Origin: a virus
Strand: one strand, 5' to 3'
Length of the DNA stretch: 52,245 nt
IMG/VR virus record: IMGVR_UViG_3300046009_002352
Span: 1 to 52,245 of that record
The position numbers and the translations under genes are program-made. The notes beneath the pieces were generated by a model, which saw only the letters and a program-made list of their open reading frames with translations, ran no database searches and was not told the origin of the DNA. Below, piece after piece: positions 3,753 to 43,808 of this stretch (positions within the stretch are counted from its first letter, which is position 1; each line of letters begins with the position of its first letter).

Positions 3753-5471
3753 ATGCAAACAACAGAGATAAATGGTTTTTTGATTGACCAATTCAATCAA
3801 TACAAACTTGAAGAAGGTAAGTCTCAAGGCGTTTGTCCTTTATGCTCAGCTGATAGAAAAGGAGAACACAAAAAAGCTAAATGCGCTTCTTATGATTGGG
3901 AACGTGGTCTTGGAACTTGTCATAATTGTAATAAGTCATTTCAGTTACATACTTATCAACGTAAAGGTTCTAGCGAAAAAGTGTATGTTAAACCACCTGC
4001 TAAAGAACAAGTTGAAGAAATGCAAATAAGTGAACCTGTTGCTAACTGGTTTGCGACACGAGGTATTTCTAAAGAAACTCTTTATGAATTACAAATATCC
4101 GAGGGAAAAGAATTTATGCCTCAAACAGGTAAAGAAGAAAATGTTATTCAATTCAATTATTTTATAGGTAATGATCTTGTCAATGTAAAATACAGAGATG
4201 GCAGAAAGAACTTTAAACTTTACAAAGGGGCAGAAAAAATATTTTACAACATCAACAGCATAGTCGGTTGGGACTACTGTATATTAGTTGAGGGAGAGAT
4301 GGATGTCTTAGCTCTTACTGAAGCAGGAATAACAAACGCTATTTCAGTACCTAATGGTGCGACACTACATACAAATAATTTAGAATACCTAGATAATTGT
4401 ATTGATTATTTTGATGACAAGAATAAAATAATCATTGCTGTAGACTCAGATGAAGCTGGGCAAGCATTACAATCTGAATTAATCAGAAGGCTAGGATCTG
4501 AAACTTGTTATATAGCAACGTTTGAAGATTGTAAAGATGCAAATGAATACTTATTAAAATATGGTAAAGAAGCTTTAGCTAATAGAATAGGTAAAGCAAA
4601 ACCTGTACCATTAGAAAATGTTACAACATTTAAAGACATAGAAGATGAAATTACGGACTTTGTTAGGAATGGTTTCAAACCTGGCTTCCAAGTTGGATTA
4701 CCTAATTTCGATGATATATTCAGCACTTATACTGGGCAGTTTATTACTGTTACTGGTGTGCCTAGTTCGGGCAAGTCTGATTTCGTTGATCAAATGGTTG
4801 TAGGCTACAATAAAAACTACGGTTGGAAAACAGCTTATGCTTCACCAGAAAATTCACCGACATATTTGCATGCTCATAAGTTAATGCGTAAAGTTTGGGA
4901 AGGTATGCCTACAGAAGCAGATATTTATTCTGAAAGATGGAATCAAGTTGCGGACCACGTTAATGATAACTTTTTCTTTATTGACATGGAACGTTATACA
5001 TTGGATTCTGTTTTAAAGAAAGCTGGCGAGCTTGTTAAGCGTAAAGGAATCAAGTGTCTTGTTATAGATCCATTTAATAAAGTTAGAGACACAAATGCTG
5101 AGTCAGCCGATATCAATGCTTATACATTAGAATATCTTACTAAGATTGAGATATTTGCTAAAAAGTATGATGTTCTTGTAATGATTGTTGCGCATCCTAC
5201 TAAAATGTATAAAGGCTCAGATGGTAAGATTGAAGAACCTACCATGTATAATATTAAAGGTGGAGGTGAATGGTATGATGCTTCTTATCACGGCTTATTA
5301 GTTCACAGAGATTACGAAAACAAAACTGTTAAAGTAAAAGTACTTAAGGTTAAGTTCCAGAATCTTGGTGAGAATGGCGCAGAATGTCATTTTATTTGGG
5401 AGCCAAAGTCAGGTTGCTTTATTCCACATATACCAATAGACGCATCTAATGATCGTATGCCGTGGGAATAA
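3753..5471 (+). CDS. T7 gp4-type bifunctional primase-helicase
   Basis: The protein has 572 residues, close to T7 gp4. The N-terminal zinc-binding domain has Cys28/Cys31 (CPLC) and Cys56/Cys59 (CHNC). The TOPRIM primase core follows: LVEGEMD at 178-184 and AVDSDEAG at 229-236. The DnaB/RecA-like helicase half has Walker A GVPSSGKS at 335-342, Walker B LVIDP at 436-440, and a VAHPTK motif at 479-484 with His481 in the usual sensor position. It would unwind DNA ahead of a polymerase and lay down primers at the fork. It is the first gene after the terminator at 3.67 kb and has its own AT-rich leader. No phage DNA polymerase is recognisable in the window, so it may work with a host polymerase. 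Confidence 0.92.
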   Translation: MQTTEINGFLIDQFNQYKLEEGKSQGVCPLCSADRKGEHKKAKCASYDWERGLGTCHNCNKSFQLHTYQRKGSSEKVYVKPPAKEQVEEMQISEPVANWFATRGISKETLYELQISEGKEFMPQTGKEENVIQFNYFIGNDLVNVKYRDGRKNFKLYKGAEKIFYNINSIVGWDYCILVEGEMDVLALTEAGITNAISVPNGATLHTNNLEYLDNCIDYFDDKNKIIIAVDSDEAGQALQSELIRRLGSETCYIATFEDCKDANEYLLKYGKEALANRIGKAKPVPLENVTTFKDIEDEITDFVRNGFKPGFQVGLPNFDDIFSTYTGQFITVTGVPSSGKSDFVDQMVVGYNKNYGWKTAYASPENSPTYLHAHKLMRKVWEGMPTEADIYSERWNQVADHVNDNFFFIDMERYTLDSVLKKAGELVKRKGIKCLVIDPFNKVRDTNAESADINAYTLEYLTKIEIFAKKYDVLVMIVAHPTKMYKGSDGKIEEPTMYNIKGGGEWYDASYHGLLVHRDYENKTVKVKVLKVKFQNLGENGAECHFIWEPKSGCFIPHIPIDASNDRMPWE

Positions 5472-5486
5472 TAAAAATAGTAAAAT

Positions 5487-5753
5487 ATGAAATCAAGAGA
5501 ATTTAATAAATTAGCAAAAGAAGAACAGCAAAAAGAAATAGAAAAGTGTAATTCATTTGAATACTTTTATAAAAATTATTGTTGGAGAGAAGGTATGCCT
5601 GAATATTCAGAAAAAGCTTATAAAGAATACTTAGAATTTGCTGAAACAGCTAGATATATGATTGGCATAACAAACAGAAGAGGCAAGGCTATGTGTATGA
5701 GAGAGTACCCATTAACACCTGAAGAAGCGTTTAAAAATAAAAACTATGAGTAG
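5487..5753 (+). CDS. Small protein with a terminase-like YPLTPEEAF tail
   Basis: The protein has 88 residues, is strongly charged at the N-terminus (EEQQKEIEKCNSFEYF) and ends M-R-E-Y-P-L-T-P-E-E-A-F. That tail matches a segment found in many large terminases, where a (Y/F)P-T-E-AF string follows the ATPase core; the TerL here has RQFPRTEQHAF. Either a terminase fragment was captured or the likeness is chance. No catalytic residues are seen. Its end overlaps the next start by 8 bp, so the two are coupled. Function is unknown. Confidence 0.65.
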   Translation: MKSREFNKLAKEEQQKEIEKCNSFEYFYKNYCWREGMPEYSEKAYKEYLEFAETARYMIGITNRRGKAMCMREYPLTPEEAFKNKNYE

Positions 5754-6093
5754 TGGAAATAAAAAGAAAGGACAAATAGATATGGGTAATTATGTAGCTA
5801 AGCCTAGAGAACAAGATGCTTATGTTTGGTGCATACATAATAATATATTTATTGCGCCTAAAGCTAAAAGTTCATCTGAATGGTACCTTACTATTAACAT
5901 TAATAGTAAAGTAAGTACAAGTCCAATGGCTTATGAAAAGGTTGAAATATGGAAAGAACTTTATAAATTCTATTTATATTATTATGAAAAGTATAGTGGA
6001 GTAGAAGTTGAAAAGAAAGTTGAACCTAAAAAGTTTATAAAAGAGGAACCAATAAAACAAAAAGAAAAACAAATAATAAATACTTTATTTTAA
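5746..6093 (+). CDS. Conserved hypothetical early protein
   Basis: The protein has 115 residues; the ATG at 5746 lies eight bases before the end of the previous gene. It has a central YVAKPREQDAYVWCIHNNIF segment, an EWYLTININ beta strand, an aromatic helix (ELYKFYLYYYEKY) and a Lys/Glu-rich tail. I recall similar AKP..DAY.WC..NNI and EW-I-I-N proteins in Bacteroidetes phages as uncharacterised. It lies immediately before the thymidylate-synthase-family gene (one-base gap), but no link in function is visible. It has no membrane segment or signal peptide. Confidence 0.7.
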   Translation: MSSGNKKKGQIDMGNYVAKPREQDAYVWCIHNNIFIAPKAKSSSEWYLTININSKVSTSPMAYEKVEIWKELYKFYLYYYEKYSGVEVEKKVEPKKFIKEEPIKQKEKQIINTLF

Positions 6094-6094
6094 T

Positions 6095-6862
6095 ATGACA
6101 AAATACGAATCACAATATAAAAATTTATTATATAGATGTTTAGGAGGCGGAGTACATCGCAAAGACAGAACAAAGGTAGGTTGCTTGTCAATATTCAATG
6201 CTAGTTTAAGAGTTGATCTTAATGATGGCTTCCCATTAATAACCGGAAGAAAAATGTTTCAAAAGACTTTTGATACGGAATTTGAATGGTTTATGCACGG
6301 CGAAACAAATATACAGAGATTCAAAGATGCTGGCGTAAAGATATGGGATGCTTGGGCCGATGAAAATGGAGATCTAGGACCAGTATATGGTTATCAAATG
6401 CGAAACTTTAACGGAGCTGGTGGTGATCAACTTAAAGCTGTAATAACAAGTTTAAGGAATGATCCAGACAGCAGAAGACATATAATATCATTATGGAATC
6501 CATTGCAGTTGCATCAAATGGCGTTACCTCCTTGCTATTTATATTTTCAATTTTTTGTAGAAGATGATAAATTAAACATGTTTGTTGTACAAAGATCCGG
6601 AGATTTGTTTTTAGGTATACCTTATGATGTAGCTTTGTTTTCAAAAATACTTTTGTATATTGCAGAAAAAACTGGATTAAAAGCAAATTATATTGATATA
6701 CAAGTTGTGGACGCTCATATTTATGACAATCAGCATAAAGCTGTAGAGGAATATCTTGCGAATGAAACTTTTCCATCTCCGAGCTATATTTACAAAAACG
6801 GAGCATTATCCCTAATAAATTACAATCACGGACCAGTAATAACGGCAAAAGTAGCCATTTAA
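6095..6862 (+). CDS. Thymidylate synthase (ThyA) family enzyme with Asp at the pyrimidine-selecting site
   Basis: The protein has 255 residues, near the ThyA length (264 in E. coli). Family residues are present: Glu62 (EFEWFMHGETN), Trp84 (IWDAWADENGDLGPVYG), DSRRHI at 125-130, catalytic Cys147 in LPPCYLYFQF, RSGD at 167-170, His208-x-Tyr210 and a C-terminal KVAI. The exception is the base-reading position: LGLPFNIA of E. coli (Asn177) reads LGIPYDVA here, so Asp178 replaces Asn. T4 dCMP hydroxymethylase has Asp at the matching site, and Asn-to-Asp mutants of thymidylate synthase are known to shift from dUMP to dCMP. The enzyme may thus be a dCMP methylase or hydroxymethylase rather than a dTMP maker. 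It neighbours MazG-like genes and a ribonucleotide reductase. Confidence 0.88.
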   Translation: MTKYESQYKNLLYRCLGGGVHRKDRTKVGCLSIFNASLRVDLNDGFPLITGRKMFQKTFDTEFEWFMHGETNIQRFKDAGVKIWDAWADENGDLGPVYGYQMRNFNGAGGDQLKAVITSLRNDPDSRRHIISLWNPLQLHQMALPPCYLYFQFFVEDDKLNMFVVQRSGDLFLGIPYDVALFSKILLYIAEKTGLKANYIDIQVVDAHIYDNQHKAVEEYLANETFPSPSYIYKNGALSLINYNHGPVITAKVAI

Positions 6863-6871
6863 TCTAAATAT

Positions 6872-7765
6872 ATGTATTTTATCTACCATATTCCAGGTAA
6901 AAAGATTGGCGTTACACGTAATCTTAATAAGAGAGTTGAGCTTGCACAGGGCTATATGCCTGGCGAATACGAAGTGCTAGAAATTAGCAATGACATAAAT
7001 TATGTTTCAAATCGCGAAAAGCAACTACAACAATTTTACGGTTATAAAGTTGATCGAGATTCCTACAAACAAGTAATAGACAGTAAAAATAAACTAAACA
7101 AAACAAAAACTATGAAATTAAATATCACAGAACAAACCGTAACTTTTCCATGTCCTCCAAATAAACTTAAAGGACAACTTTTAGACGCAATAGGATTAAC
7201 ATTTGAAACACAATTTGGTAAATATATATTAAACGATGAGCTAATAGATTGGATTGTACAAAACGCTACTGTGTCAATGTTTAATATCAATCGTAGTTTT
7301 GTATATAACAAAGCATTACACAACGCTTTTAATCAATTATCACAAACAGTACCTGAACCAATTAATTGGCCAACTAATCAAAATGTAAATTCATTAAATG
7401 ATATTTTTGAACGTTTTGCAGAAGCTATGCATCGGGCTGAATCAATTAAAGAAGAAGCTGATAAAGCTCCTAATGTTTATGATCGTATTAGAGAATGGGC
7501 AGATGAGCGAGGCATATACAAAAACGGTGATTCTAAAACCCAGTTTATTAAACTTCAAGAAGAGACCGGCGAACTTGCTAGAGCTATATTAAAGAAAGAT
7601 CGTGCGGAATTAATTGATGCAATTGGTGATGCAGTTGTTGTATTAACTAATCTGGCCGCATTAGAAGGATTAAAAATTGAAGACTGTGTTGAATCCGCTT
7701 ATGGCGTAATTAAATCAAGACAAGGCTCAATGGTAAATGGAACATTTGTAAAAAACACTTTATAA
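6872..7765 (+). CDS. GIY-YIG-like domain fused to MazG-type pyrophosphohydrolase
   Basis: The protein has 297 residues. Residues 1-60 resemble a GIY-YIG fold: FIYHIPGKKIGVTRNLNKR at 3-21 with Arg16, and Glu49 in NREKQLQ. Residues 80-200 are a linker domain I do not recognise. Residues 200-290 are MazG-like, with Glu230-Glu231-x-x-Glu234 and Glu246-x-x-Asp249 as the Mg-binding EExxE...ExxD set. MazG enzymes hydrolyse (d)NTPs or ppGpp. An internal ATG at 7112 (MKLNITEQ, residue 81) could start a MazG-only product. It lies in the nucleotide-metabolism cluster. Whether the N-terminal half still cuts DNA is uncertain, because its strands are short and the second motif is weak. Confidence 0.72.
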   Translation: MYFIYHIPGKKIGVTRNLNKRVELAQGYMPGEYEVLEISNDINYVSNREKQLQQFYGYKVDRDSYKQVIDSKNKLNKTKTMKLNITEQTVTFPCPPNKLKGQLLDAIGLTFETQFGKYILNDELIDWIVQNATVSMFNINRSFVYNKALHNAFNQLSQTVPEPINWPTNQNVNSLNDIFERFAEAMHRAESIKEEADKAPNVYDRIREWADERGIYKNGDSKTQFIKLQEETGELARAILKKDRAELIDAIGDAVVVLTNLAALEGLKIEDCVESAYGVIKSRQGSMVNGTFVKNTL

Positions 7766-7766
7766 T

Positions 7767-8138
7767 ATGAAGCAAGAAATTAATTTTAGAGATCCAGTTG
7801 TACAGTCTGTTGTAAATAAATTTGTAGATCGTTCTGATGTTGGATATGCAAAGTATGGTAAAACATTACGTAATGATACTTCAGATATATTTGTATGGCT
7901 TAATCATTTGCAAGAAGAATTAATGGATGCAACATTATACTTACAACGATTAAAAGAAGAAATATCATCTTTGCGTGAGGAAAAAGAATTACTTAATAGT
8001 ATACATGATATTGACGTTATTGATCCGGAGTTTATAAAGCCTCCTCCTGTATGGAGAGCAAATCGCGGCGACGAAATGACTTTTACAATTGACGAAGGTG
8101 AACCATTTGGTATTTTCTATAGAACATTTAGTAAATGA
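7767..8138 (+). CDS. MazG-like/dNTP-pyrophosphatase-related protein
   Basis: The protein has 123 residues. The N-terminal half has RSDVGYAKYGKTL at 22-34 and HLQEELMDATLYLQRL at 47-62, a pattern I know from small all-alpha NTP-pyrophosphatase-like phage proteins (Glu50, Glu51 and Asp54 as metal ligands). The C-terminal half, PPPVWRANRGDEMTFTIDEG, looks like a separate small beta unit. It follows the larger MazG fusion by one base and overlaps the next gene by ATGA. Two adjacent MazG-like genes suggest concerted removal of non-canonical or host nucleotides. Confidence 0.65.
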   Translation: MKQEINFRDPVVQSVVNKFVDRSDVGYAKYGKTLRNDTSDIFVWLNHLQEELMDATLYLQRLKEEISSLREEKELLNSIHDIDVIDPEFIKPPPVWRANRGDEMTFTIDEGEPFGIFYRTFSK

Positions 8139-8749: not shown

Positions 8750-10618
8750 ATGAGCCTTAGTTTAGATAAACAAATTTTAAGTGATATTACTGTATACACA
8801 AAGTATGCAAAGTATTTGCCAAACAAAGAAAGAAGAGAGACATGGGAAGAATTAGTAACCAGGAATATGGATATGCACAAAGCCAAATTTCCACAAATAA
8901 AAGAAGCAATTGAACAGATATACAAAAACTTTGTATTCACTAAAAAAGTTTTACCTTCGATGCGAAGCCTCCAGTTTGGTGGTAAAGCTATTGAACTTAA
9001 TAATGCTAGGATCTATAATTGTGCTTTTTTACCTGTTGATAGTATTCATAGTTTCTCTGAGACTATGTTTTTATTGCTTGGTGGAACTGGTGTCGGTTAT
9101 TCGGTCCAAAATCACCAAATAGAAAAGCTACCTGAAATTAGAAAACCTAATTACGATCGTAAGAAAAGATACGTTGTTCAGGATAGTATAATTGGCTGGG
9201 CTGATGCAATTAAAACGTTATTCAAATCATACACAGGGGAGCTTACTTCTCACATCGAATTTGATTTGTCCGATATACGCCAGAAAGGAGCATTGCTTGT
9301 TACGGCAGGGGGTAAAGCACCAGGACCAGAACCATTGCGTATAGCATTAGTAAAGATTGAGGCTATCTTGAGAACGAAAGAGGACCGATCAAAACTTACG
9401 GATATTGAATGCCATGATATTCAGTGCCATATTGCCGATGCAGTTTTAGCCGGAGGAATACGTAGAGCAGCAATGATTTCTCTATTTGATCTTGATAGTA
9501 CGGCAATGTTAAATTGTAAAGCTGGCAATTGGTGGGAAGAAAATCCACAAAGAGGTAGAGCAAATAATTCAGTAGTACTTTTAAGACATAAAATTGATAA
9601 GAAAACATTTGACAAAGTTTGGGAAAGAATTGAAGCATCTGGCTCAGGAGAACCCGGAATATATCTTACTAATGATAAGGATTGGGGTACTAACCCTTGT
9701 TGCGAGATTGCTTTACGACCGTATCAGTTTTGTAATTTAACTGAGATTAATATGGCAGATATTGAAGATCAAGACGATCTTAACGCAAGAGCATCTGCAG
9801 CATCATTTTTAGGAACATTACAAGCATCATATTCAGACTTTCATTATCTACGTGATATATGGAGAAAGAATACAGAGAAGGATGCGTTACTTGGAGTTTC
9901 AATGACAGGTATTGCATCTAAGTCAAACTTAGAATTAAATTATGAAGAAGCAGCAAACGTCGTTAAGAAAACAAACAAAGAAACAGCTGAAGCGATTGGA
10001 ATTAATGTCGCAGCGAGAACTACAGCCGTTAAACCAGCTGGCACGACTAGTTTGGTACTTGGTACTTCTAGCGGGATACATGCTTGGCATAATGACTATT
10101 ATATACGCCGCATGCGCTTAGGCAAGAATGAAGCTATATATTCTTATCTTGCTATAAATCATCCAGAATTGCTAGAAGATGAATATTTTAATCCAACATT
10201 ACAATCAGTTATTTCAGTTCCACAAAAGGCTCCAGAAGGCGCTATAACGAGACATGAATCAACATTAGATCTATTAGAAAGAGTAAAACTAATTTCTAAA
10301 GATTGGGTTAAGACTGGCCATGATAAAGGCAACAACACGCACAATGTATCTTGTACAGTTTCTGTAAGAGATGATGAGTGGAAAATTATTGGTGAATGGA
10401 TGTGGGCTAATAAAGAATACTATAATGGTTTATCGGTATTGCCATACAATGGTGGAACATATAAGCAAACCCCATTTGAAGATTGTACAAAAGAAGTATA
10501 CGATGAAATGATGTCTACATTAAAAGATGTTGATTTATCAAAAGTAATTGAAGTTCAAGATAATACTAACTTTGTGGATGCAGCAGCCTGCGGTGGAGGG
10601 AATTGTGAGATTGTATAG
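8750..10618 (+). CDS. nrdJ: Class II (adenosylcobalamin-dependent) ribonucleotide reductase
   Basis: The protein has 622 residues. It resembles the monomeric B12-dependent reductase of Lactobacillus leichmannii rather than class I NrdA: VLPSMRSLQFGGKAIE at 67-82, NARIYNCAF with Cys91, GGTGVGYSVQ at 111-120, then NPCCEI with Asn315, Cys317 (thiyl radical) and Glu319, and FCNL with Cys328. Cys91 and Cys328 would be the redox pair, and the tail CGGGNC (Cys614, Cys619) the re-reducing pair. It reduces ribonucleotides to deoxyribonucleotides without oxygen or a separate radical subunit, but needs host cobalamin. No NrdB-like gene is seen, which supports class II. It is shorter than the roughly 740-residue bacterial enzyme. 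Confidence 0.88.
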   Translation: MSLSLDKQILSDITVYTKYAKYLPNKERRETWEELVTRNMDMHKAKFPQIKEAIEQIYKNFVFTKKVLPSMRSLQFGGKAIELNNARIYNCAFLPVDSIHSFSETMFLLLGGTGVGYSVQNHQIEKLPEIRKPNYDRKKRYVVQDSIIGWADAIKTLFKSYTGELTSHIEFDLSDIRQKGALLVTAGGKAPGPEPLRIALVKIEAILRTKEDRSKLTDIECHDIQCHIADAVLAGGIRRAAMISLFDLDSTAMLNCKAGNWWEENPQRGRANNSVVLLRHKIDKKTFDKVWERIEASGSGEPGIYLTNDKDWGTNPCCEIALRPYQFCNLTEINMADIEDQDDLNARASAASFLGTLQASYSDFHYLRDIWRKNTEKDALLGVSMTGIASKSNLELNYEEAANVVKKTNKETAEAIGINVAARTTAVKPAGTTSLVLGTSSGIHAWHNDYYIRRMRLGKNEAIYSYLAINHPELLEDEYFNPTLQSVISVPQKAPEGAITRHESTLDLLERVKLISKDWVKTGHDKGNNTHNVSCTVSVRDDEWKIIGEWMWANKEYYNGLSVLPYNGGTYKQTPFEDCTKEVYDEMMSTLKDVDLSKVIEVQDNTNFVDAAACGGGNCEIV

Positions 10619-11005: not shown

Positions 11006-14000
11006 TTAATCACCGCCCATCTTTCTCTTTCTTTTTTTCAAAGCTTGCTCTCTTTTTTCTAAAGCTTTCTTTCTTCTAAATTCAAGTCTTTCTTTAGGAT
11101 CCATTTCCATTAAAGCTTTTTTATCAGCTTTTCTTTTTTCTTCTCTTGAAATTATTCCTTTTTCAATACCTTCCTCTTTTCTTTTAGCTTTAGCTTCTAC
11201 TTTGATTTTCTCATTCTCTTCATTCTTAACATTTAATTCCCATTCTTTCCAACCTAATGCTAATGCTAGTCTTTGAATTTTAGTATTACGAGAATCAAGT
11301 GCTTCAGATACATTACCAACTTTTTCAACAACACGATCAAGCGGTAAATTTGTTGTAGCAACAACTACATTACCAACTATGTCATAATTAGGGCTAAGAT
11401 TTAATCTTCCATCTTTAGTTATTTCCCAACCACGAGCTTCTATTACATCTTTATCGAATTTTTTAATTCTATAAGCTCCATATAATTTTTTAGCTTTTGA
11501 ACTAATAGGAGGTGATATACTAGCAGCAGCTAATATTGTATAAGCATGGTCAGCAAACATCTTTCTTTCTTCTTGTTTGTTGTATTCCATTGCAGCATTT
11601 TTAATAGTAGAAATTAAAGCTCCATAAACACCAGATCCTCTAAGAACTGTATCAGACATACCATTTAATATACTTACTGCCTTGTCATCTTGTTTTTTCT
11701 TAAGCTTTTCATATTCTTTTTTCTGCTCGCTTGACATTTTTGCAATAGCCTCTTCGTCTTCTTCTTCAAATGGTAAAAACAATGCAGACTGTAATGCAGA
11801 GAATAAAACATTCTGTAAAGCTCCGTAATACATTATTTTTGACAAATTAGTTTTCCAATCTCCACGCTTATTAACTAAGTCTAAGGTTGCTTTTTTTATC
11901 TCTCTATTATATTGCATAGGAGTATTAGCAAAAGCTAACACAAGACGCCCTAATGAGGTCGTTTGTTGCTTAGATATATACATTGGATCAGCCGATTGCA
12001 TTGATTTATCTGTTATCAAAGAAAAATCAACCCAAGCTTTGTCTTCAGCTTCTTCAAGCGTATTTATTTTATTACCATCCTCATCAACTTGCTTTAAATA
12101 AGTGTTAACACGATTTCTATAAAATGTTGAACCCCCTAAAGCAATAGAGAAACTATCCGCTGCTTGTGTTGGAGTAAATCCAATTTTTTGTAAATAAGAT
12201 AATACTCCTCTTGCTTTGTTAGTTGCGCTATTTGCGGCATTAGCAATCTCAGCTTGAGTAACATCCGCTTTTAAACCAGATCTTCTTTCACGCATTTTAT
12301 CTGAATTAATAATCTTAGCAAAGTCAGACCAATATTGTTTTTGATCAGCAAATGCTGTTGCAGCAGCTAAAGGATTATTATCATTCCAGTTTAAATAGTT
12401 AGTTGACGATATAGTCTGTAATAATGCTGATCTTACATTAAAGAACATGATCGCAGCAGTAGAACCATTAATCCAATTCATCCATATATTAGTAAGTCTA
12501 TCAGATCCTTCTGGTCTATTCTTACCATTCTTCATTCTATATAAAGAATCTTCCAATGCTATTCTAACATTCGTCCCGTAAGTTGCTTGTACTTTATTAA
12601 GGTTTTCAGTAGTAAAAATTGCATTAGCATTTTCTATAAACTCAGATAACCATTTCTTTCTACCTTCACCTTCTGTTATATTATGTAAGTCAGATATAAT
12701 AGTTTCACTATCCCAAGTTGTAGAAGGAGGCATCCATCCACCATCTTGTCTACCGGCTATAGATAATGCTTCAGCAAAACTAATAAGATTTGGATCATTC
12801 TTAACCAAGAATACTAATTTGTTTTTATCTCTTCTATTTAACCCCGGAACATCTATATCATTCTTATGCCATAAGTAAACCCTAACAGCTTGATCATAAG
12901 TAAATTGTTTATCTGGAGTTAACTTTTCTAATTTCTTTTTAATATCTGGGAAACTATTAAGTAACTTTTTGTATTCCTTCTTTATAGATTGACGAACAGA
13001 ATCCAAAGCATTAATACCTTTAACATAAGGTATAACTAGATTAGCATCAAAAAATTCTTGATCTTTTTCACCTTGTTTTCCTTTGCCAGCAAACATATAA
13101 GTGGTTAACCCTCTAAAGTCATCTGCAGATGGCGGAACAAAGAAAGATAAAGTATTTGCTTTTGTACCTGTTCTTTTTGCAACAATATCTGAGATTTTTT
13201 CGTATGATGGAACATTTTTATTACGCGCAAGCATATCATTAAACGCATAATCTAATGATTTACTATCATTTACTTTTAATTTATCTTGCGTCTTGTTGTT
13301 TTTTGGCGTGTTTATTAAAAACAAAGTGTCTTCCCCATTATTTACTTGCTCCGTTGTATAAGTCCATCCAAGTCTAGATCCTATTGTAGCTGCCATTGTT
13401 TTATATAATCTTATACGGCTAGGTTCGAGTGCAGTAAAAACAATACCTTCTATATTATTTTTTTGTATATATTCAACCAATCCATTAGTAACTATGCTTA
13501 AAACCTTAAAAGAATTACCGATTTCTAAAACATCTGTACCCATATCATCTTCCTGAAATGTAGTAAAAAGTAAATTTTCATTATCCGTTAAGTAGGTTAA
13601 TGGTACTCCTAAATCATCGGTTATTTTTTTAAAAGCTTTGGTATATGTTGGGTCCTGATCAAGTCCATATTTTTTTAAAGGGGAGACGTATATACTATAA
13701 TTATACTCCCCTACTTTAAAAGCAGCGCTCGTTTCCCCTAATTTAGTTGTCCATTGTAAATTAGCTTTTGTTGTTAAACTAAATTTAGGTCTTGACTTCC
13801 ATTTAGGATCTGAATTTATCCAATCATTTAATTGCTTTTCTGCAAATTTAATTGTCTCTACATTAAGTGCGTCATTTACGGCAGCCATTAATGATCCACC
13901 TTCATTTTCACGGTCTTCAATAACATCAAAAGCATAGTCAACAGACTTATTCATGCCTTCAATAGTATTATTAGAAACAATCCCCCACCAATCTTCAATA

Positions 14001-17000
14001 GATTTGTTAAGATCATTTAATACTTCAAAAGATGTTTCAGCATCAATTCTTTTAATATCATTTTTAGCAATATAATCAGAAACTATTGTAATACCTTTAT
14101 CGTCTTTATTAAAAGAGTTTAAATTATTCTCTAAAGATTTAGAAAACATTCTTTTTGATTTTCTTTCAATTATATTTTTTGCTTTTTTGTTATTAAATTT
14201 AGATATATTTGAGCCTTTATTTTCAATATATTTTTGTATAATTTCTATTTTATCTGCATTAAAATTCAAATAACCTCTAGTCGACAATATATTGTCTGCA
14301 CTTATTTGATATTCAAAAGTTAAATTAAATAATTTATTTGGGTCAAAGTCTCCTCCAAAAATATTTGAAAATTTATCAACACCCGTATAACCGTTAAAAT
14401 AGTCAAACAACCTGCCGCTAATGCTTATAATATCTTGAGGTTGAGATTTTTTATTATTTAAAGCTTTTGCAAAATTTACTCCAACCTCAAATCGGTTATT
14501 TTTTATATCAGCATATCTTCTTCCTCCCTCTAATTGTTCGTTTTTTCCTTTTTTTGCACCAAATTTTTCCTGTAATTTTATAGAATCATCTAATGATAAT
14601 TTAATATTGCCAGCAGGAGTAACCGTATAATTAGTTATTCCCGCTTCCTTAACTACATTTTTTAATAAAGAGCTTTCGTTACCAGCTATATGATTAACTA
14701 TTTCACTTATTTGATTATATAATACACTTCCTTTATTACCAAAGATTCCTTTTTTCAGCGCTGTTTTTAACGAATTACCTGTTATAGAAGTTAATGGAAT
14801 CCTACCACTAGCGGCTTTTTTAGCTTCAACAATTATAGCTAGTTTTGATAATTTTTCTTTTATTACAATATCTGGCACGTATTGGTTGTTGCCTCCGACT
14901 ACCTCAACATTGTAATCTTTGCCGACATATTTAGATATGAATGTACCTAACATTTTTTCTTGCGCTTGCCAATGAAATCTATCAAATGTCTTGCCTGCTG
15001 CAATTAATATGTTATATAAGGAGTCTAGCTCGTTGTCATCTGCATCAATTATTTTATTAATTGTTTGATTAAAAAGGCTATTTGTCTTAATATAGAAATT
15101 TTTGTCATTTTTCATTTCGTATATAAGAGCGTTTACTTCTGCTTTAGTAATTGAAAATTTAACATTGCCACGTTCTGCTAGTCTATTAAATTCTTCTAGC
15201 ATTATTTTTTCAGTTACAGCTCCTTTTAATTCTTGATTTCTATTTAGAGCTTCTGATATTATGCCATCGTTAGCAATGTCATCAGATATAATATCAAATG
15301 AAACTTCTTCAGCCAACGCTTTGGCTAAAGATTCTTTTCTGCCTCTAATTGGATTGCCTGTCTCTAAATCTATAATTGAAGATAAGAAATCAATTGTTGG
15401 TACATTTTTATTAACCTCAGGTAATCTTCTTACCATTTCATGACCAGCAGTTCTACCTGCTAAATCAACATCAACCGATTCACGATCTATTTTTTTACCT
15501 TTCCATTCAGGAAAATTAACCCATCTACCGTTTATTCTTTTTTGAATAGCAAATGGCATTCCACCAACTCCATCTTTACCCATTAACCATGTAGTAGTCA
15601 TATTTTCAAGAATTGTTTTCTTATTGACAATTAGCCAATTTTGTAATTCTTGATTTTCTTTACCACCCATTGCTTTTTTAATATCAATATCGGCTTGTTT
15701 ACCCATCTCATCTCTTATCTCACTAATTAACGGAGCGACAGTCTTATTCAAGGAAGTCTTTTCATTAATTTTGGATTTCAATGTTCTTGCAACCGGTAAG
15801 ATTTTAGCTTGGATATTAGCAATAACATCTGGACTAAATACGCCAGATTCTAATATGTTTTGGAAACGTTTTCTTTCTGGCAATGAAGGCTTAGTTACTT
15901 CTACATCTTCATTAGCTAACTTAGTCATTTCAGAAACATCCTCAGTAAATACAACATCCGCAACTTCACCACTTTTTAGAGCTCCTTTCATACGGTTTAT
16001 ATACTGAGCATTTATATATCCATATAAACTATTATTTCTAGCAGGATCAAATTTAGCAATATAAGGGATCATCGATGTTCTTACATAACTAACCATTTCT
16101 TCCATATTAAACCCATCGATACCACCTCTATCTTTATTTGTAAGATCTATTACGGTACCTTTTGCTGTTTTCCAGTTTCTAGACTTAACTTTAACCATTT
16201 TGTCAAGCTCTGAATAAATTTCTGGATTATTAGGATTAAATCCTTTTGGATCATTACCAATAGCATCAAGTTTAGCTTTTGCTTTATTAGCAACATCACT
16301 TACCTCTACATCTTCTTTTGCTTTTGTAGGTTTCTTTTCTGTAGGTTTAGTTTCAAGTTTATTTTCTGCTGGTTTAACACCTGCTCTCTTTTCTTCATAT
16401 TCTTTACGAGCCAATTCAGCTTCCTCTTGTTCGAGAGCTAGCATTTGGGCATCATAACGATCCATATCAATTTCGTTATCATTTAATTGTCTATCAAGCT
16501 CATCCATTCTTTCCTCAATAGATTTTGAACCTTTAATGAAACTTGCAGATACTTCACCATCTTTAGATATAAGTTTACCTTTTGCTTCGCTTCTTAATAA
16601 TCTACGTTGAGCAATATTTAATTCTTTATCTTTAGTTATTGTATTATTATAATCCCTTATGAAATTAAATACATCTCTACCAGAGTTAAATTCTATACTT
16701 GTTAAACCTAAATCTTGGAAAAATCTACGTATTTGATCACCAACTTTAGTAAAGAAGCTTTCTTTATATTTTAAATTTCCGGTAATAAGAGCATCGGAAA
16801 ATATATTTAATAACTCTTCCATCTGAGTACCAGAATCTTCGCCTCCATAATTACGTTCTAATCTACCTATAACCTTATCGTTAAGATAAAGCTCAGGGCT
16901 ATTAGATAATAAGTAATCTGTTAATGATTCACCTAATGCTATTTGGCTATCTGATTTAGCAACTGTTTTTGCTAATAATTTATGTAAAAATTCGTGTGAT

Positions 17001-19903
17001 CCAACAGACACAGCTTTTGTGTCTAAAGCAACTTCTCTATTTATAATAATAAAGGATTTTCCTGCTTTACCATCTATTATAGTACCATCTGATTTTTTAA
17101 TTGCTTTTAATACGGTGGTATTTATTTCTTCTAATAATTGACCGCTTTTATTTAAAGATTTAACAGTACTGTCTATTGACTTAGACGTATTTGCTAATAT
17201 TATTTCAGTATCAGTATCTTTAGCTAATCTTTCCGCTACTTTTAAGTTTGCTTCAAACTCTTTTTTACGTACTTCCTTTAGATCAATACCTTCGCTTTTA
17301 TATATAATATTAGTTTGTTCTTCTATTCCATCTAATACATTTTTTCTTTCGCTTTCACTCATATCTTTATTAAAAGATACTTCAACGCGTTGAGCAGCTA
17401 AATCGATCAAATTAGCCTTAGATATTGTGGATATTGGTTGATCAAATGTTCTAACGCTTTCTGCTGCATTTGCTAAGCTGTTTAGTTTCATTTTCTCTTT
17501 TGTAAACTCTTTTCTCAATATATCAAGATCCTCAACCTTAGTAACAGCATCAGAGCTATCAATTTGTTTTGCTTTATTTAATATATTCGCTATATTAGAG
17601 GATGTATCGTTTATTGATTTAAAAGTACCAGGACTCATTTCTCCCATATTGCTTATGGTAGAAGCAAATATTTCTGATGTTTTATCCTTTAACTCTACAA
17701 GTTTACTATTCAACGATGCCTTTTGGACTTCTGATAAATCTTTATTAAACTCGAGCTCATTTATTATAGCTGCCATAGCTCTTGAATTATTAAAAGCTTT
17801 TGAAGCTGTGCTTTCACTCATAAACGGGCGAATAGCTACTCCGCCTAATATAGGGGCTCCCGCTAACAATGTAGTTAAAATAGCGGTATCCTGGCCTACT
17901 TCAACGGCGTTGTCAAGTAAATTTACATTTTCACCTAATACAAATTTACGTACGGCATTCTGTGATATATTTGTAAATTGCTCAGACAAAAATTCCTCTC
18001 CTTGCGCTTCAGTAAAATTCAATCCAGCTTTTTTCATTAGCTTATTACTGGTCATAACATTAAAGTCATACCATTTATCCGGAGCTGTTTTAGCCGCAGA
18101 GTTAAAGAACCCGCGTCCTTTGTCTAAAATTTTACCAGTTGATTTTTCAAAAACCCCTTCAGCATATCCATATAAAGCAGGAGCCACAATAAGTTCTTTT
18201 AAGCCGTAATCAGGTTTTACAAATTCACCATTCTCATTATAATAACCATTTTTCTCTTGGTTTATCATATTCAAATATTCGGAACCCATTCCTCTAGCCG
18301 CTATTAAGCTTGTTTGCTTGTTTAATAGAAAGTATGATCCAATTTTTTTAGCTGTAGATGTTTTTGCTACAGACTGTGCGGCTTTTGCTTCTAGACTAGC
18401 TCCACGAGTAAGATATAGAGCAACTAAATCTGGTGCTTGATTAATAAGCAAATCGCCGGCCTTTTCAAAAACCCCCTCAGCGCTAGTTAATTCTCTTTCT
18501 TTTGGATATAATTCTTGTAAATCTTTACCAAGACTATCCACTCTTTCTGCAAGAAATTCAGAAGATGCTGTAAATGGATTTTTAATTCCAGTTAGTTCAC
18601 CTATTTTTAAATAGTCATAAGCTGCTGATTTTAAAGGTCCACCACCTAAATAATCAGCACCTCCAAGAAGTTCATAGGCCCATTGGGTACTTCTTGTTTT
18701 TAATTTATCAGCAACACCTGTCCATGAATAATCTCTTTTATATAAATCTTGTTGAAAGTTTAAATCGTCATATTTTGTAGATTCCTTATCTATTTTTTTA
18801 TTAAGGTCTCTATAATTTATGTTTTCTAATTCATATATTTTAATTAACTCATTACGTTGAGCAAGCTTTTTATTCTCATCATCAACTTCTTCTTGAGTTT
18901 TAAACTTATAATTATTTGGTTTAATTACTTTGTTTAATTCACTTATTTTATTACTTATATCTGATATTTGATTTTCTTTTTCTTCTCTGGTTATAACATC
19001 TTTTGTATAAGCAGCAGCTTCAGCAGCCTTTGTTTTTTCAAAATAGTTATTGGCTATACTCCTTGATTTATCAGAAATATCGGTAGTATTTTCTAAGTAA
19101 TCTTTAAACTTATCATTTTTTAATTTAGCAATTTCTTTTTTCTTATATTCAGAAGCAGCCATATCTAATATAGCGTCCTCATTAAATTTACCTAATAAAT
19201 TTTTAGAACTTAATTCTTTTTTTATTTTAGTAACCTCGTCAGGGAATGGCTTATATATTTCTGTAGTCTCACTCCCTATTGCATAGCCATATTCGTCAAC
19301 TGGAGCAGGTGTAACTATCTTTTTGCCGTTTTTTGCTTTTTCTGCTTCTATATATAGTTCAATATCGCTTAATTCTTCTTCCGTAGGTTTAGAAATTAAT
19401 TCTCCTTCTTCAACCCATTTTGAAGCTTCTTTGTCTTTCTTTAAATCCAATGAAGCAACAGTAGCTTTAAATTTAGAAAGATCCGCGGCTTCTGTTATTT
19501 TAGCTTCCTCAGTCTTCTTTGCTTGTTTTGCTTTAAACTCAGGTGTCTCTATTGAAAATGGAGCAGTCTCATCTATTTGTCGTTGGTATACGCTTGAAGT
19601 AAGTTGATCCAAAAACTCTTGTGATTTAACAGGAGTCATTGGAGCCGATGCTTTTACTGGCTTTTGATTTTCTTTGCTCTTTTTAAAATTGCTTAAAAAT
19701 CCAACCTCTTCTTTTTTTTCTTGGCCATCGCTCCAAGGATATTTTTTTGCTTTTGGCTTAGCTGCAACAGTACTCTTTGCAGCTTTTTGTTTTAACTTCT
19801 TATTTTTTATAATGGCATCAGCCGAGATTTTCTGCTCGGCTGCCATTCTATTTATATCGTTTTCTGTATATGTTTGTCCTAAATCGTCGATGTACTCAAG
19901 CAT
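11006..19903 (-). CDS. Giant virion-associated polyvalent protein (2965 aa)
   Basis: It is the longest gene here and the last of the structural arm. In order: a Lys/Ala-rich N-terminus; long coiled segments; hydrophobic patches near 670-690 (AILTTLLAGAPILGGVAI); a zincin motif HEFLH at 970-974; a sigma-region-2-like stretch FDPARNNSLYGYINAQYI from about 1285; a PD-(D/E)XK-like motif PDIVI...IVEAKK (Asp1678, Glu1693, Lys1695); a possible acetyltransferase-like stretch near 2150-2180 (EPSRIRLYKTMAATIG); and a C-terminal region (about 2480-2720) with NVRSALLQTISS, GFTPTQAADSF and LAFANTPMQYNREIKKA that I recall from giant proteins of many phages. It is probably packed in the capsid and ejected with the DNA. 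I see no clear RNA-polymerase motifs, so an N4-type virion polymerase is not claimed. Confidence 0.8.
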   Translation of the reverse strand: MLEYIDDLGQTYTENDINRMAAEQKISADAIIKNKKLKQKAAKSTVAAKPKAKKYPWSDGQEKKEEVGFLSNFKKSKENQKPVKASAPMTPVKSQEFLDQLTSSVYQRQIDETAPFSIETPEFKAKQAKKTEEAKITEAADLSKFKATVASLDLKKDKEASKWVEEGELISKPTEEELSDIELYIEAEKAKNGKKIVTPAPVDEYGYAIGSETTEIYKPFPDEVTKIKKELSSKNLLGKFNEDAILDMAASEYKKKEIAKLKNDKFKDYLENTTDISDKSRSIANNYFEKTKAAEAAAYTKDVITREEKENQISDISNKISELNKVIKPNNYKFKTQEEVDDENKKLAQRNELIKIYELENINYRDLNKKIDKESTKYDDLNFQQDLYKRDYSWTGVADKLKTRSTQWAYELLGGADYLGGGPLKSAAYDYLKIGELTGIKNPFTASSEFLAERVDSLGKDLQELYPKERELTSAEGVFEKAGDLLINQAPDLVALYLTRGASLEAKAAQSVAKTSTAKKIGSYFLLNKQTSLIAARGMGSEYLNMINQEKNGYYNENGEFVKPDYGLKELIVAPALYGYAEGVFEKSTGKILDKGRGFFNSAAKTAPDKWYDFNVMTSNKLMKKAGLNFTEAQGEEFLSEQFTNISQNAVRKFVLGENVNLLDNAVEVGQDTAILTTLLAGAPILGGVAIRPFMSESTASKAFNNSRAMAAIINELEFNKDLSEVQKASLNSKLVELKDKTSEIFASTISNMGEMSPGTFKSINDTSSNIANILNKAKQIDSSDAVTKVEDLDILRKEFTKEKMKLNSLANAAESVRTFDQPISTISKANLIDLAAQRVEVSFNKDMSESERKNVLDGIEEQTNIIYKSEGIDLKEVRKKEFEANLKVAERLAKDTDTEIILANTSKSIDSTVKSLNKSGQLLEEINTTVLKAIKKSDGTIIDGKAGKSFIIINREVALDTKAVSVGSHEFLHKLLAKTVAKSDSQIALGESLTDYLLSNSPELYLNDKVIGRLERNYGGEDSGTQMEELLNIFSDALITGNLKYKESFFTKVGDQIRRFFQDLGLTSIEFNSGRDVFNFIRDYNNTITKDKELNIAQRRLLRSEAKGKLISKDGEVSASFIKGSKSIEERMDELDRQLNDNEIDMDRYDAQMLALEQEEAELARKEYEEKRAGVKPAENKLETKPTEKKPTKAKEDVEVSDVANKAKAKLDAIGNDPKGFNPNNPEIYSELDKMVKVKSRNWKTAKGTVIDLTNKDRGGIDGFNMEEMVSYVRTSMIPYIAKFDPARNNSLYGYINAQYINRMKGALKSGEVADVVFTEDVSEMTKLANEDVEVTKPSLPERKRFQNILESGVFSPDVIANIQAKILPVARTLKSKINEKTSLNKTVAPLISEIRDEMGKQADIDIKKAMGGKENQELQNWLIVNKKTILENMTTTWLMGKDGVGGMPFAIQKRINGRWVNFPEWKGKKIDRESVDVDLAGRTAGHEMVRRLPEVNKNVPTIDFLSSIIDLETGNPIRGRKESLAKALAEEVSFDIISDDIANDGIISEALNRNQELKGAVTEKIMLEEFNRLAERGNVKFSITKAEVNALIYEMKNDKNFYIKTNSLFNQTINKIIDADDNELDSLYNILIAAGKTFDRFHWQAQEKMLGTFISKYVGKDYNVEVVGGNNQYVPDIVIKEKLSKLAIIVEAKKAASGRIPLTSITGNSLKTALKKGIFGNKGSVLYNQISEIVNHIAGNESSLLKNVVKEAGITNYTVTPAGNIKLSLDDSIKLQEKFGAKKGKNEQLEGGRRYADIKNNRFEVGVNFAKALNNKKSQPQDIISISGRLFDYFNGYTGVDKFSNIFGGDFDPNKLFNLTFEYQISADNILSTRGYLNFNADKIEIIQKYIENKGSNISKFNNKKAKNIIERKSKRMFSKSLENNLNSFNKDDKGITIVSDYIAKNDIKRIDAETSFEVLNDLNKSIEDWWGIVSNNTIEGMNKSVDYAFDVIEDRENEGGSLMAAVNDALNVETIKFAEKQLNDWINSDPKWKSRPKFSLTTKANLQWTTKLGETSAAFKVGEYNYSIYVSPLKKYGLDQDPTYTKAFKKITDDLGVPLTYLTDNENLLFTTFQEDDMGTDVLEIGNSFKVLSIVTNGLVEYIQKNNIEGIVFTALEPSRIRLYKTMAATIGSRLGWTYTTEQVNNGEDTLFLINTPKNNKTQDKLKVNDSKSLDYAFNDMLARNKNVPSYEKISDIVAKRTGTKANTLSFFVPPSADDFRGLTTYMFAGKGKQGEKDQEFFDANLVIPYVKGINALDSVRQSIKKEYKKLLNSFPDIKKKLEKLTPDKQFTYDQAVRVYLWHKNDIDVPGLNRRDKNKLVFLVKNDPNLISFAEALSIAGRQDGGWMPPSTTWDSETIISDLHNITEGEGRKKWLSEFIENANAIFTTENLNKVQATYGTNVRIALEDSLYRMKNGKNRPEGSDRLTNIWMNWINGSTAAIMFFNVRSALLQTISSTNYLNWNDNNPLAAATAFADQKQYWSDFAKIINSDKMRERRSGLKADVTQAEIANAANSATNKARGVLSYLQKIGFTPTQAADSFSIALGGSTFYRNRVNTYLKQVDEDGNKINTLEEAEDKAWVDFSLITDKSMQSADPMYISKQQTTSLGRLVLAFANTPMQYNREIKKATLDLVNKRGDWKTNLSKIMYYGALQNVLFSALQSALFLPFEEEDEEAIAKMSSEQKKEYEKLKKKQDDKAVSILNGMSDTVLRGSGVYGALISTIKNAAMEYNKQEERKMFADHAYTILAAASISPPISSKAKKLYGAYRIKKFDKDVIEARGWEITKDGRLNLSPNYDIVGNVVVATTNLPLDRVVEKVGNVSEALDSRNTKIQRLALALGWKEWELNVKNEENEKIKVEAKAKRKEEGIEKGIISREEKRKADKKALMEMDPKERLEFRRKKALEKREQALKKRKRKMGGD

Positions 19904-42005: not shown

Positions 42006-42262
42006 ATAACTATTACGACATCTTGTAATCTTATAACCTGATAGTCCTGGCCTTCAAACTCTATTCCATGCCCAGCAGCTTTATCATAATAAATAACATC
42101 GGCTTCTTTTAAACATTTAATATCCTCACTCACAGAAACTACAATAGCTTCTTTATAACGTATATTTTCTTTATCTTTTTCTTTTAATAATAAACCGCTA
42201 TCCGTTTTTGATAATCCTACTTTTTTCGGAAGTATCACTATATTATTACCTATTGCCCTCAT
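42002..42262 (-). CDS. groES: Phage GroES co-chaperonin
   Basis: The protein has 86 residues (GroES has about 97). MRAIGNNIVILPKK is the GroES first strand, TDSGLLLKEKD the mobile loop (GroES: S-A-G-G-I-V-L), then EAIVVSVSEDI, a GD-like KEADVIYYDKAAGHGIEFE and the ending RLQDVVIVI, the canonical closing strand (GroES ...D-I-L-A-I-V-E). The mobile loop contact IVL is LLL here. It caps the adjacent GroEL-like protein. The gene overlaps groEL by 17 bp, a tightly coupled pair, in the reverse of the usual groES-groEL order. Confidence 0.88.
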   Translation of the reverse strand: MRAIGNNIVILPKKVGLSKTDSGLLLKEKDKENIRYKEAIVVSVSEDIKCLKEADVIYYDKAAGHGIEFEGQDYQVIRLQDVVIVI

Positions 42263-43808
42263 TAACTCTTAAATTATTAATTACACAATCGGTTGATAAT
42301 ATTGTAACAGCTACGGATGCTGCATTTTTTAATGCGCTCTTAGTAACAGATAGAGGATCAATAATTCCTGCTTCTATCATGTTCACTTGTTCCCCGGTTA
42401 CAGCATTTAATCCAGAGCCTTCTAAGCGATTCCAATCATCTCCTGGATGATCAATACCAGCATTACTTAATATTGTCTTAAATGGAGCCTTAATAGCTCT
42501 TAGAAGAGCAATACCTCCATTGTTCGTTGTTAATACATTTCTTGAAGCATCTAAAAGAGCAATTCCTCCGCCGGGAACAATTCCTTCTTTAATAGCGGCT
42601 TTAGTTGCACAAATTGCATCTTCAACTCTATCAGCTTTTTCTTTTAATTCTAAATCAGATCCAGCACCTACTTTTACAACAGCAACTTTTGCTGATAGTC
42701 TAGCTAATCTTTTTTCTAATCTAATAACATCTCCTGGAGCAGTAGCAACCTGTAATTGTGAATTTAACTCATCAATTAATTCTTGTACTTCTTCTTTTGT
42801 TTCACCAACGTGCAATATCGTTTCACTATCATCTGTTATTGCTTTCAAACAACTACCTAAACATTCAATATCTATAAGATCCATATCGTCTCCTAGATCT
42901 TCGTTTATAATTGTAGCTCCAGTTAATAAAGCAAGATCCATTAGGGTATCCTTTTTTGTGATACCATAAGTTGGTGCATTGATAACATTAACTTTTATAT
43001 TACCTTTAACTTTATTCATTGCTAAAGCAGATAGTACAGTTTGTTCCATGTCTGCAATAATCAATAACGGCTTGTTATTCTTTATTACATATTCTAAAAC
43101 TGATTGTATCTGACGAATAGATTCCACCGGTGATTCAACAATCAATACTAATGGATTTTCTAATTCGGCAATTCTTTTATTTGGGTTTGTGATAAAGTTT
43201 GAATTTACTAATCCTTTATCATATTGTACACCATCTATAATTTCTATTTCTGTTTCTGGATTTGCTGATGATTCCATCATAACAATACCAGTTTCACCAA
43301 CTGCTCTAAAAGCATCACCAATAATTTTACCAAGTACTGGATCGTTGTTTGTTGATATAGTGGCAATGTGATCTATCATATCTCCAGTTACTGGAACTTT
43401 AATAGATTCTAAATATTCTATAACTTTATCTACTGTAGTCTCAATACCGTTTTTTAAATCTCTTGAACTTACAGTATCTTGAATTGCATAAGCTTCTTCT
43501 AAAATAGCATGTGCTAATACAGTTGCTGTAGTTGTGCCATCACCAGCTTCCTTAACTGTTTTTCTAGCTGCTTCTTTTAAAAGTCTTGCTCCCATATTCT
43601 CTACAGGATCTAATAATGTAATGCTGTCTGCAACCGTAACCCCGTCTTTTGTAATTAACGGTCTGCCTTTACTATCTTCTAACATTACGCATTTTCCACC
43701 AGCTCCTAATGTTGAGCTAACTGCTTTAGTTAACTTTGTTATACCGGCAAATACATTATCTCGTGCTTCGTTACCAAAGCTGAGATTCTTTACTATTTCA
43801 TCTGACAT
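42246..43808 (-). CDS. groEL: Phage GroEL chaperonin
   Basis: The protein has 520 residues (E. coli GroEL 548). Chaperonin motifs: LITKDGVTVADSI at 51-63 (Asp55), GDGTTTATVLA at 89-99 (Asp90, matching Asp87), a KPLLIIADMEQTVLSAL apical segment, VGAGSDLELKEKADRVEDA with Asp397 (the Asp398 of E. coli), KEGIVPGGGIAL at 407-418, GLNAVTGEQVNMIEAGIIDP and VTKSALKNAASVAVTILST. Two differences: the nucleotide loop LGPKG is LGAGG (34-38), and there is no C-terminal GGM tail (ends VNEGNR). It probably folds capsid or other phage proteins. It overlaps groES by 17 bp. Confidence 0.93.
   Translation of the reverse strand: MSDEIVKNLSFGNEARDNVFAGITKLTKAVSSTLGAGGKCVMLEDSKGRPLITKDGVTVADSITLLDPVENMGARLLKEAARKTVKEAGDGTTTATVLAHAILEEAYAIQDTVSSRDLKNGIETTVDKVIEYLESIKVPVTGDMIDHIATISTNNDPVLGKIIGDAFRAVGETGIVMMESSANPETEIEIIDGVQYDKGLVNSNFITNPNKRIAELENPLVLIVESPVESIRQIQSVLEYVIKNNKPLLIIADMEQTVLSALAMNKVKGNIKVNVINAPTYGITKKDTLMDLALLTGATIINEDLGDDMDLIDIECLGSCLKAITDDSETILHVGETKEEVQELIDELNSQLQVATAPGDVIRLEKRLARLSAKVAVVKVGAGSDLELKEKADRVEDAICATKAAIKEGIVPGGGIALLDASRNVLTTNNGGIALLRAIKAPFKTILSNAGIDHPGDDWNRLEGSGLNAVTGEQVNMIEAGIIDPLSVTKSALKNAASVAVTILSTDCVINNLRVNEGNR

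Follow-up and report, generated by a model that had tools for sequence, protein, structure and literature searches.

A Thymidylate-Synthase-Family Gene with an Asp/Tyr Switch and a MazG Neighbor: A Predicted dCMP 5-Methylase Cassette in Putative Bacteroidota Phages

Described Systems Closest to the Locus

If the Asn that selects the base in thymidylate synthase (TS; Asn177 in E. coli, Asn229 in L. casei) is replaced by Asp, then activity turns to dCMP, according to PMC8670742, which cites these classic experiments. This agrees with the first-pass annotation of our locus, which had stated that Asn-to-Asp mutants favor dCMP. The engineered dCMP methylases L. casei TS N229D and E. coli TS N177D share with the enzyme described here both the identical change and a TS active site that is otherwise ordinary. 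Our enzyme differs from them in that it is natural, is fixed in a large phage clade, carries an additional His147-to-Tyr change and has a MazG partner.

MetaGPA compared the TSs of cytosine-modified environmental phage contigs with those of unmodified ones (PMC8670742). Positions 177 and 147 received the highest scores of all, and most modified contigs encode Asp177. The changed residue 147 and the co-occurrence of PRA-PH/MazG-type hydrolases are further features that these contigs have in common with our locus. They also carry carbamoyltransferase and dCMP deaminase genes, whereas the deaminase is absent from our clade and no carbamoyltransferase was recognized in its long members.

Phages AXL1 and DLP4 are relatives of the 5-methylcytosine (5mC) phage Xp12 (PMC9206674) and stand in for Xp12 (MT664984) in our comparisons. 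They too possess Asp177, an altered position 147 and a TS gene that adjoins a nucleotide pyrophosphohydrolase gene. However, they have Pro147, Asn143 and Phe83, carry DHFR and dCMP deaminase genes nearby and belong to a different clade. AXL1_63 falls elsewhere in the tree on a very long branch, which, together with the differences at 147, 143 and 83, argues against close kinship with the Xp12 group. T4 gp42 shares the TS fold, the Asp177 equivalent and the catalytic Cys, Glu, Arg, His and Tyr with our enzyme. Unlike our enzyme, it has Asp145 at the third position ahead of the Cys and Ser94 at the second ahead of the Tyr, and it lacks the C-terminal tail (PMC6400193). T4 also has a neighboring glucosyltransferase gene, and none was seen in our phage.

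The closest parallel in logic is the Z-cluster (purZ-mazZ-datZ) of cyanophage S-2L, in which MazZ makes the dGMP that PurZ uses (PMC8342488). There, a MazG enzyme feeds a monophosphate to an adjacent nucleotide-modifying enzyme, and the N-terminal fusions reported for MazZ-1 resemble one that we find in our clade. The modifying enzyme and the base are different, and where MazZ contacts guanine through D60, our MazG protein has Val.

The TS-Family Gene and Its Asp/Tyr Switch

The window, that is, the whole stretch of DNA that we analyzed, comprises one linear virus record, 52,245 bases long and with a GC content of 32.6%. No tRNA genes were found in these 52,245 bases, and the putative hosts of the phage are Bacteroidota-type bacteria. 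At 6095..6862 (+ strand), it contains a gene running from ATG to stop that encodes a 255-aa TS-family enzyme, our predicted dCMP 5-methylase. The protein matches PF00303 along its whole length (E 4.4e-76, residues 7–254) and PHROG 160, thymidylate synthase (1.3e-86). Its AlphaFold model (pLDDT 95, pTM 0.93) superposes on E. coli TS with a TM score of 0.94. Hence, both the whole-domain profile and the fold place it in the PF00303 superfamily. Our alignment contains all catalytic residues: C147 (codon 6533..6535, + strand), E62, R167, S168, D170, H208 and Y210. The gene is under purifying selection, with a dN/dS of about 0.13–0.17 against five relatives.

Positions in relatives are numbered after E. 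coli TS. The numbering agrees with the mutant names in the PDB (W80G, Y94F, L143C, C146S, D169C, N177A and Y209W). At the position of E. coli Asn177, the switch that selects the base, our enzyme has Asp178 (codon 6626..6628, + strand), and the motif reads LGIPYDVA where E. coli TS has LGLPFNIA. A second, linked change is Tyr148 (codon 6536..6538, + strand) at the position of E. coli His147 (PMC8670742). The first-pass annotation had pointed to an intact catalytic set (E62, C147, R167, H208 and Y210), to the Asn-to-Asp switch and to an Asp at the same place in T4 dCMP hydroxymethylase. The alignment bears out all three, including the shared D177 of gp42, and adds the change at 147, which had not been listed.

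To what extent are these changes conserved? Two IMG/VR scans and one GTDB genome scan yielded 90 distinct relatives (54–85% identity), with the 19 contigs common to both viral scans counted once. The scans were blind to position 177, as their peptide patterns were placed elsewhere. All 90 relatives carry D177, and 89 carry Y147. In a control search based on ordinary phage TSs, every one of the 71 loci with a readable alignment had N177/H147. Since both residues are so strongly conserved and the gene is under purifying selection, D177 is not a product of chance or sequencing error. The Asn177 of dUMP-specific TSs is thus replaced throughout by the Asp177 of TS-family enzymes that use dCMP (PMC5175136, PMC8670742).

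The D177 clade that contains our protein has a support of 96/93 (28 rows). How often D177 arose is uncertain, given the very long branches of trees that include T4 gp42 and AXL1. For a test of whether D177 gain and His147 loss go together, there were just two independent pairs, not enough for statistics. Among genome contigs, the single-protein scan recovered no relatives, while the profile scan recovered one from a Bacteroidetes MAG (62%) and, as distant matches (34–36%), two TSs from CPR genomes and one from Lokiarchaeota.

Asp177 is also found outside the clade. TS-family genes in CPR genomes (Woesebacteria/Amesbacteria; L142, L143 and L229) encode Asp177 together with Ile147, and the phosphate-binding Arg21 is replaced by Pro, Gln or Glu. 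In L142 a deaminase-like gene adjoins. These three form a separate D177 lineage, residing in CPR genomes or in their phages. The "thyA" of marine phage MedDCM-OCT-S28-C10 (L039:5986-6744) carries D177/Y147, and its gene neighbors encode an NTP-PPase, a dTMP kinase and a dCMP deaminase. It is probably a dCMP-modifying enzyme that has been annotated as thymidylate synthase.

The MazG Partner and the Genes Around the Cassette

Only 9 bp downstream of the TS-family gene starts a gene for a 297-aa MazG-type NTP pyrophosphohydrolase (6872..7765, + strand; PF03819 and MazG-like PHROGs). Its N-terminal part is GIY-YIG-like, with a beta-beta-alpha-beta-alpha order in the model; the counterpart in relative L107 matches T5orf172 with an E value of 0.0012, slightly under the curated cut-off. 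In the MazG catalytic domain (7469..7762, + strand), the ligands E230, E231, E234, E246 and D249 have the same spacing as the metal ligands of MazZ-1, the (d)GTP hydrolase of Z-phages (E34, E35, E38, E50 and D53). In contrast, the guanine contacts of MazZ-1, I56 and D60, correspond to Gly252 and Val256 in an ungapped register from the metal ligands. A preference for dGTP is not expected because of this Val, and we predict that the protein hydrolyzes dCTP. The first-pass annotation had spoken of several MazG-like proteins in the neighborhood. This is right for 6872-7765 but not for 7767-8138, which gave no MazG match (profile–profile probability 0.5%); two other neighboring families were likewise rejected by profile–profile comparison.

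The linkage between the two genes is conserved. For 89 of the 90 clade members, MazG is one of the three genes after the TS gene, nearly always the very first of them (86 gene calls), even where neighborhoods are otherwise different. The neighbors of control TS genes (131 genes from about 70 loci) include two PRA-PH matches and at most one MazG match, an upper limit given because MazG is missing among the families listed for these neighbors. The sole clade member without MazG, L029, is also the only one with His147, and it has a dUTPase gene instead. Most phages of the clade encode the GIY-YIG-like/MazG fusion. In others, MazG stands alone (for example L116:2227-2529 and L124:1697-1999), and a MazG of about 100 aa is found beside the TS gene in L116, L118, L120, L124, L128 and L137.

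Directly upstream of the TS gene lies a conserved gene for a 115-aa protein (5746..6093, + strand), whose family occupies this place in one group, whereas another group has a DUF6378 family just before the TS gene (L029:9697-9999). Both are candidate parts of the cassette. A Toprim-DnaB primase-helicase (3753..5471, + strand) belongs to the replication block around the cassette. Further downstream is a B12-type ribonucleotide reductase (8750..10618, + strand). This reductase is of class II in the window as well as in many close relatives; others have NrdA/NrdB-like genes in its place (L050:16734-18455 and 18676-19644). The phage also encodes a GroEL-like chaperonin (42246-43808, - strand) that is kept in long relatives, and a 2965-aa protein (11006-19903, - strand), probably a giant virion protein, that varies among relatives.

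Each of 29 clade records (window included; many are fragments) has a single TS, and neither dCMP deaminase nor DHFR nor a type A DNA polymerase was found in these records. No glycosyltransferase, carbamoyltransferase or nucleotide kinase was obvious from the ORF sequences of three long relatives (62–68 kb). Reading the ORFs of the window and the long relatives revealed neither a dNMP kinase nor a dedicated dCTPase. In the Bacteroidetes MAG from which one relative comes, a different contig encodes an ordinary N177/H147 TS as well, although the contigs of this MAG may be co-binned. Hence, dTMP need not be supplied by the phage.

Substrate, Product and Fate of the Modified Nucleotide

Judging from the sequence, dCMP is very likely the substrate. 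The product is probably 5-methyl-dCMP. The first-pass annotation had left open whether the enzyme is a dCMP methylase or a dCMP hydroxymethylase. Use of dCMP is favored by the conserved D177, the covarying position 147, the published work on N177D/N229D enzymes cited in PMC8670742, the MetaGPA results and the MazG linkage, but the residues that characterize the hydroxymethylase are missing.

The comparison with dCMP hydroxymethylases that the first-pass annotation had called for is divided in the same way: D177 is shared with gp42, and the remaining features are TS-like and go beyond what had been noticed. In our alignment, gp42 displays its full hydroxymethylase residue set and lacks the tail. 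Three residues before the catalytic Cys, where a hydroxymethylase has Asp or Glu, our protein and its clade have Leu (Leu144, codon 6524..6526, + strand; Leu143 in E. coli, Asp145 in T4; PMC6400193). Two residues before the proton-handling Tyr, where Ser or Thr is expected, we find Pro-Val-Tyr instead of the Ser-Asn-Tyr of T4. The C-terminal VAI tail (6851..6859, + strand), which covers the folate in TS and is missing from the T4 enzyme (PMC6400193), is present. The clade as a whole retains Leu143, Val93, Trp80, Trp83 and a V/I-A-I/V tail. Leu143 and Trp83 are not needed in a presumed phage dCMP methylase because AXL1 and DLP4 have other residues there. Nevertheless, 5-methyl-dCMP is the favored product because the hydride-transfer set of TS is kept and the hydroxymethylase signature is missing.

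One could also argue that the enzyme makes 5-hydroxymethyl-dCMP like its T4 counterpart, given the shared D177, the intact catalytic core and the fact that both enzyme types pass through the same exocyclic methylene (PMC6400193). We consider this unlikely in view of the Leu before the Cys, the Pro before the Tyr and the C-terminal tail. Moreover, no glycosyltransferase was recognized by eye in the window or the three long relatives, nor was any other enzyme there able to use a hydroxymethyl group, whereas a phage with the full signature has a glycosyltransferase nearby. This phage is ColaCorta (Microbacterium phage, Elerivirus; L234:2971-3735), which also has a MazG gene nearby and whose DNA possibly contains glycosylated 5-hydroxymethylcytosine. 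A Tet/JBP search gave no match, with its controls equally silent. Acinetobacter phage Effie was dropped as a carbamoyltransferase-phage comparator for 5-hydroxymethylcytosine, having an ordinary N177 TS.

A second alternative is that the enzyme still acts mainly on dUMP, or on dUMP and dCMP, and raises dTMP for replication. It is a clear member of the TS family that keeps the entire TS machinery, its closest named-phage matches are ordinary TSs, and MazG enzymes may also clean other dNTPs. We think this improbable because the known dUMP determinant, Asn177, is Asp in 90 of 90 relatives, with the linked change at 147. The 29 clade records also yielded neither a DHFR gene, the kind that makes up 13 of the 131 neighbors of control TS genes, nor a dCMP deaminase gene.

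We therefore return to dCMP 5-methylation, for which the sequences make a good case: the 255-aa enzyme would work in a cassette with MazG that feeds 5-methyl-dCTP into phage DNA. MazG would probably turn dCTP into dCMP for the 255-aa enzyme, and in doing so would cut down competing dCTP. Asp178, aided by Tyr148, would accept the cytosine ring of dCMP, and Cys147 would attack its C6. Methylene-tetrahydrofolate would deliver the one-carbon unit, and the folate hydride would then reduce the exocyclic methylene to methyl as in ordinary TS, which would yield 5-methyl-dCMP and dihydrofolate. A DHFR to recycle the dihydrofolate is missing from the phage records, which is a point against this model. 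Host nucleotide kinases would convert 5-methyl-dCMP to 5-methyl-dCTP, whose incorporation into phage DNA would replace some or all cytosine. The phage DNA hence probably contains methylated cytosine, which perhaps protects it from host restriction enzymes.

We recognized neither a dNMP kinase nor a dedicated dCTPase nor a type A DNA polymerase, which makes it uncertain whether cytosine is fully replaced. This would also fit 5-methyl-dCMP serving only partial DNA marking or a change of the host pool rather than genome-wide protection, which is very improbable considering that the best-known phage precedents, Xp12 and T4, swap cytosine throughout (PMC7653180, PMC8670742). It is conceivable, and we propose it tentatively, that the two-gene cassette of MazG and dCMP methylase converts most or all cytosine to 5mC in varied Bacteroidota-type phage backgrounds with only host kinases and DNA polymerase. 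Such a minimal whole-genome route would, just as tentatively, be distinct from the routes of Xp12 and T4.

A system of this kind was already foreseen by MetaGPA and Xp12; new are the defined clade, the residue set and the two-gene cassette. If our model is true, then the annotation "thymidylate synthase" conceals, among thousands of phage genes, a separate and common cytosine-methylating group that can be recognized by residues 177, 147 and 143 and by the neighboring MazG gene. It could account for possible odd methylation calls in metagenomes. The cassette would also be simple enough for a trial in E. coli, as with the 2-aminoadenine genes of S-2L. Bacteroidota phages would join the few groups thought to carry genome-wide 5-methylcytosine, and the DNA of phages in this clade would resist cytosine-sensitive restriction enzymes and yield to those that depend on 5mC.
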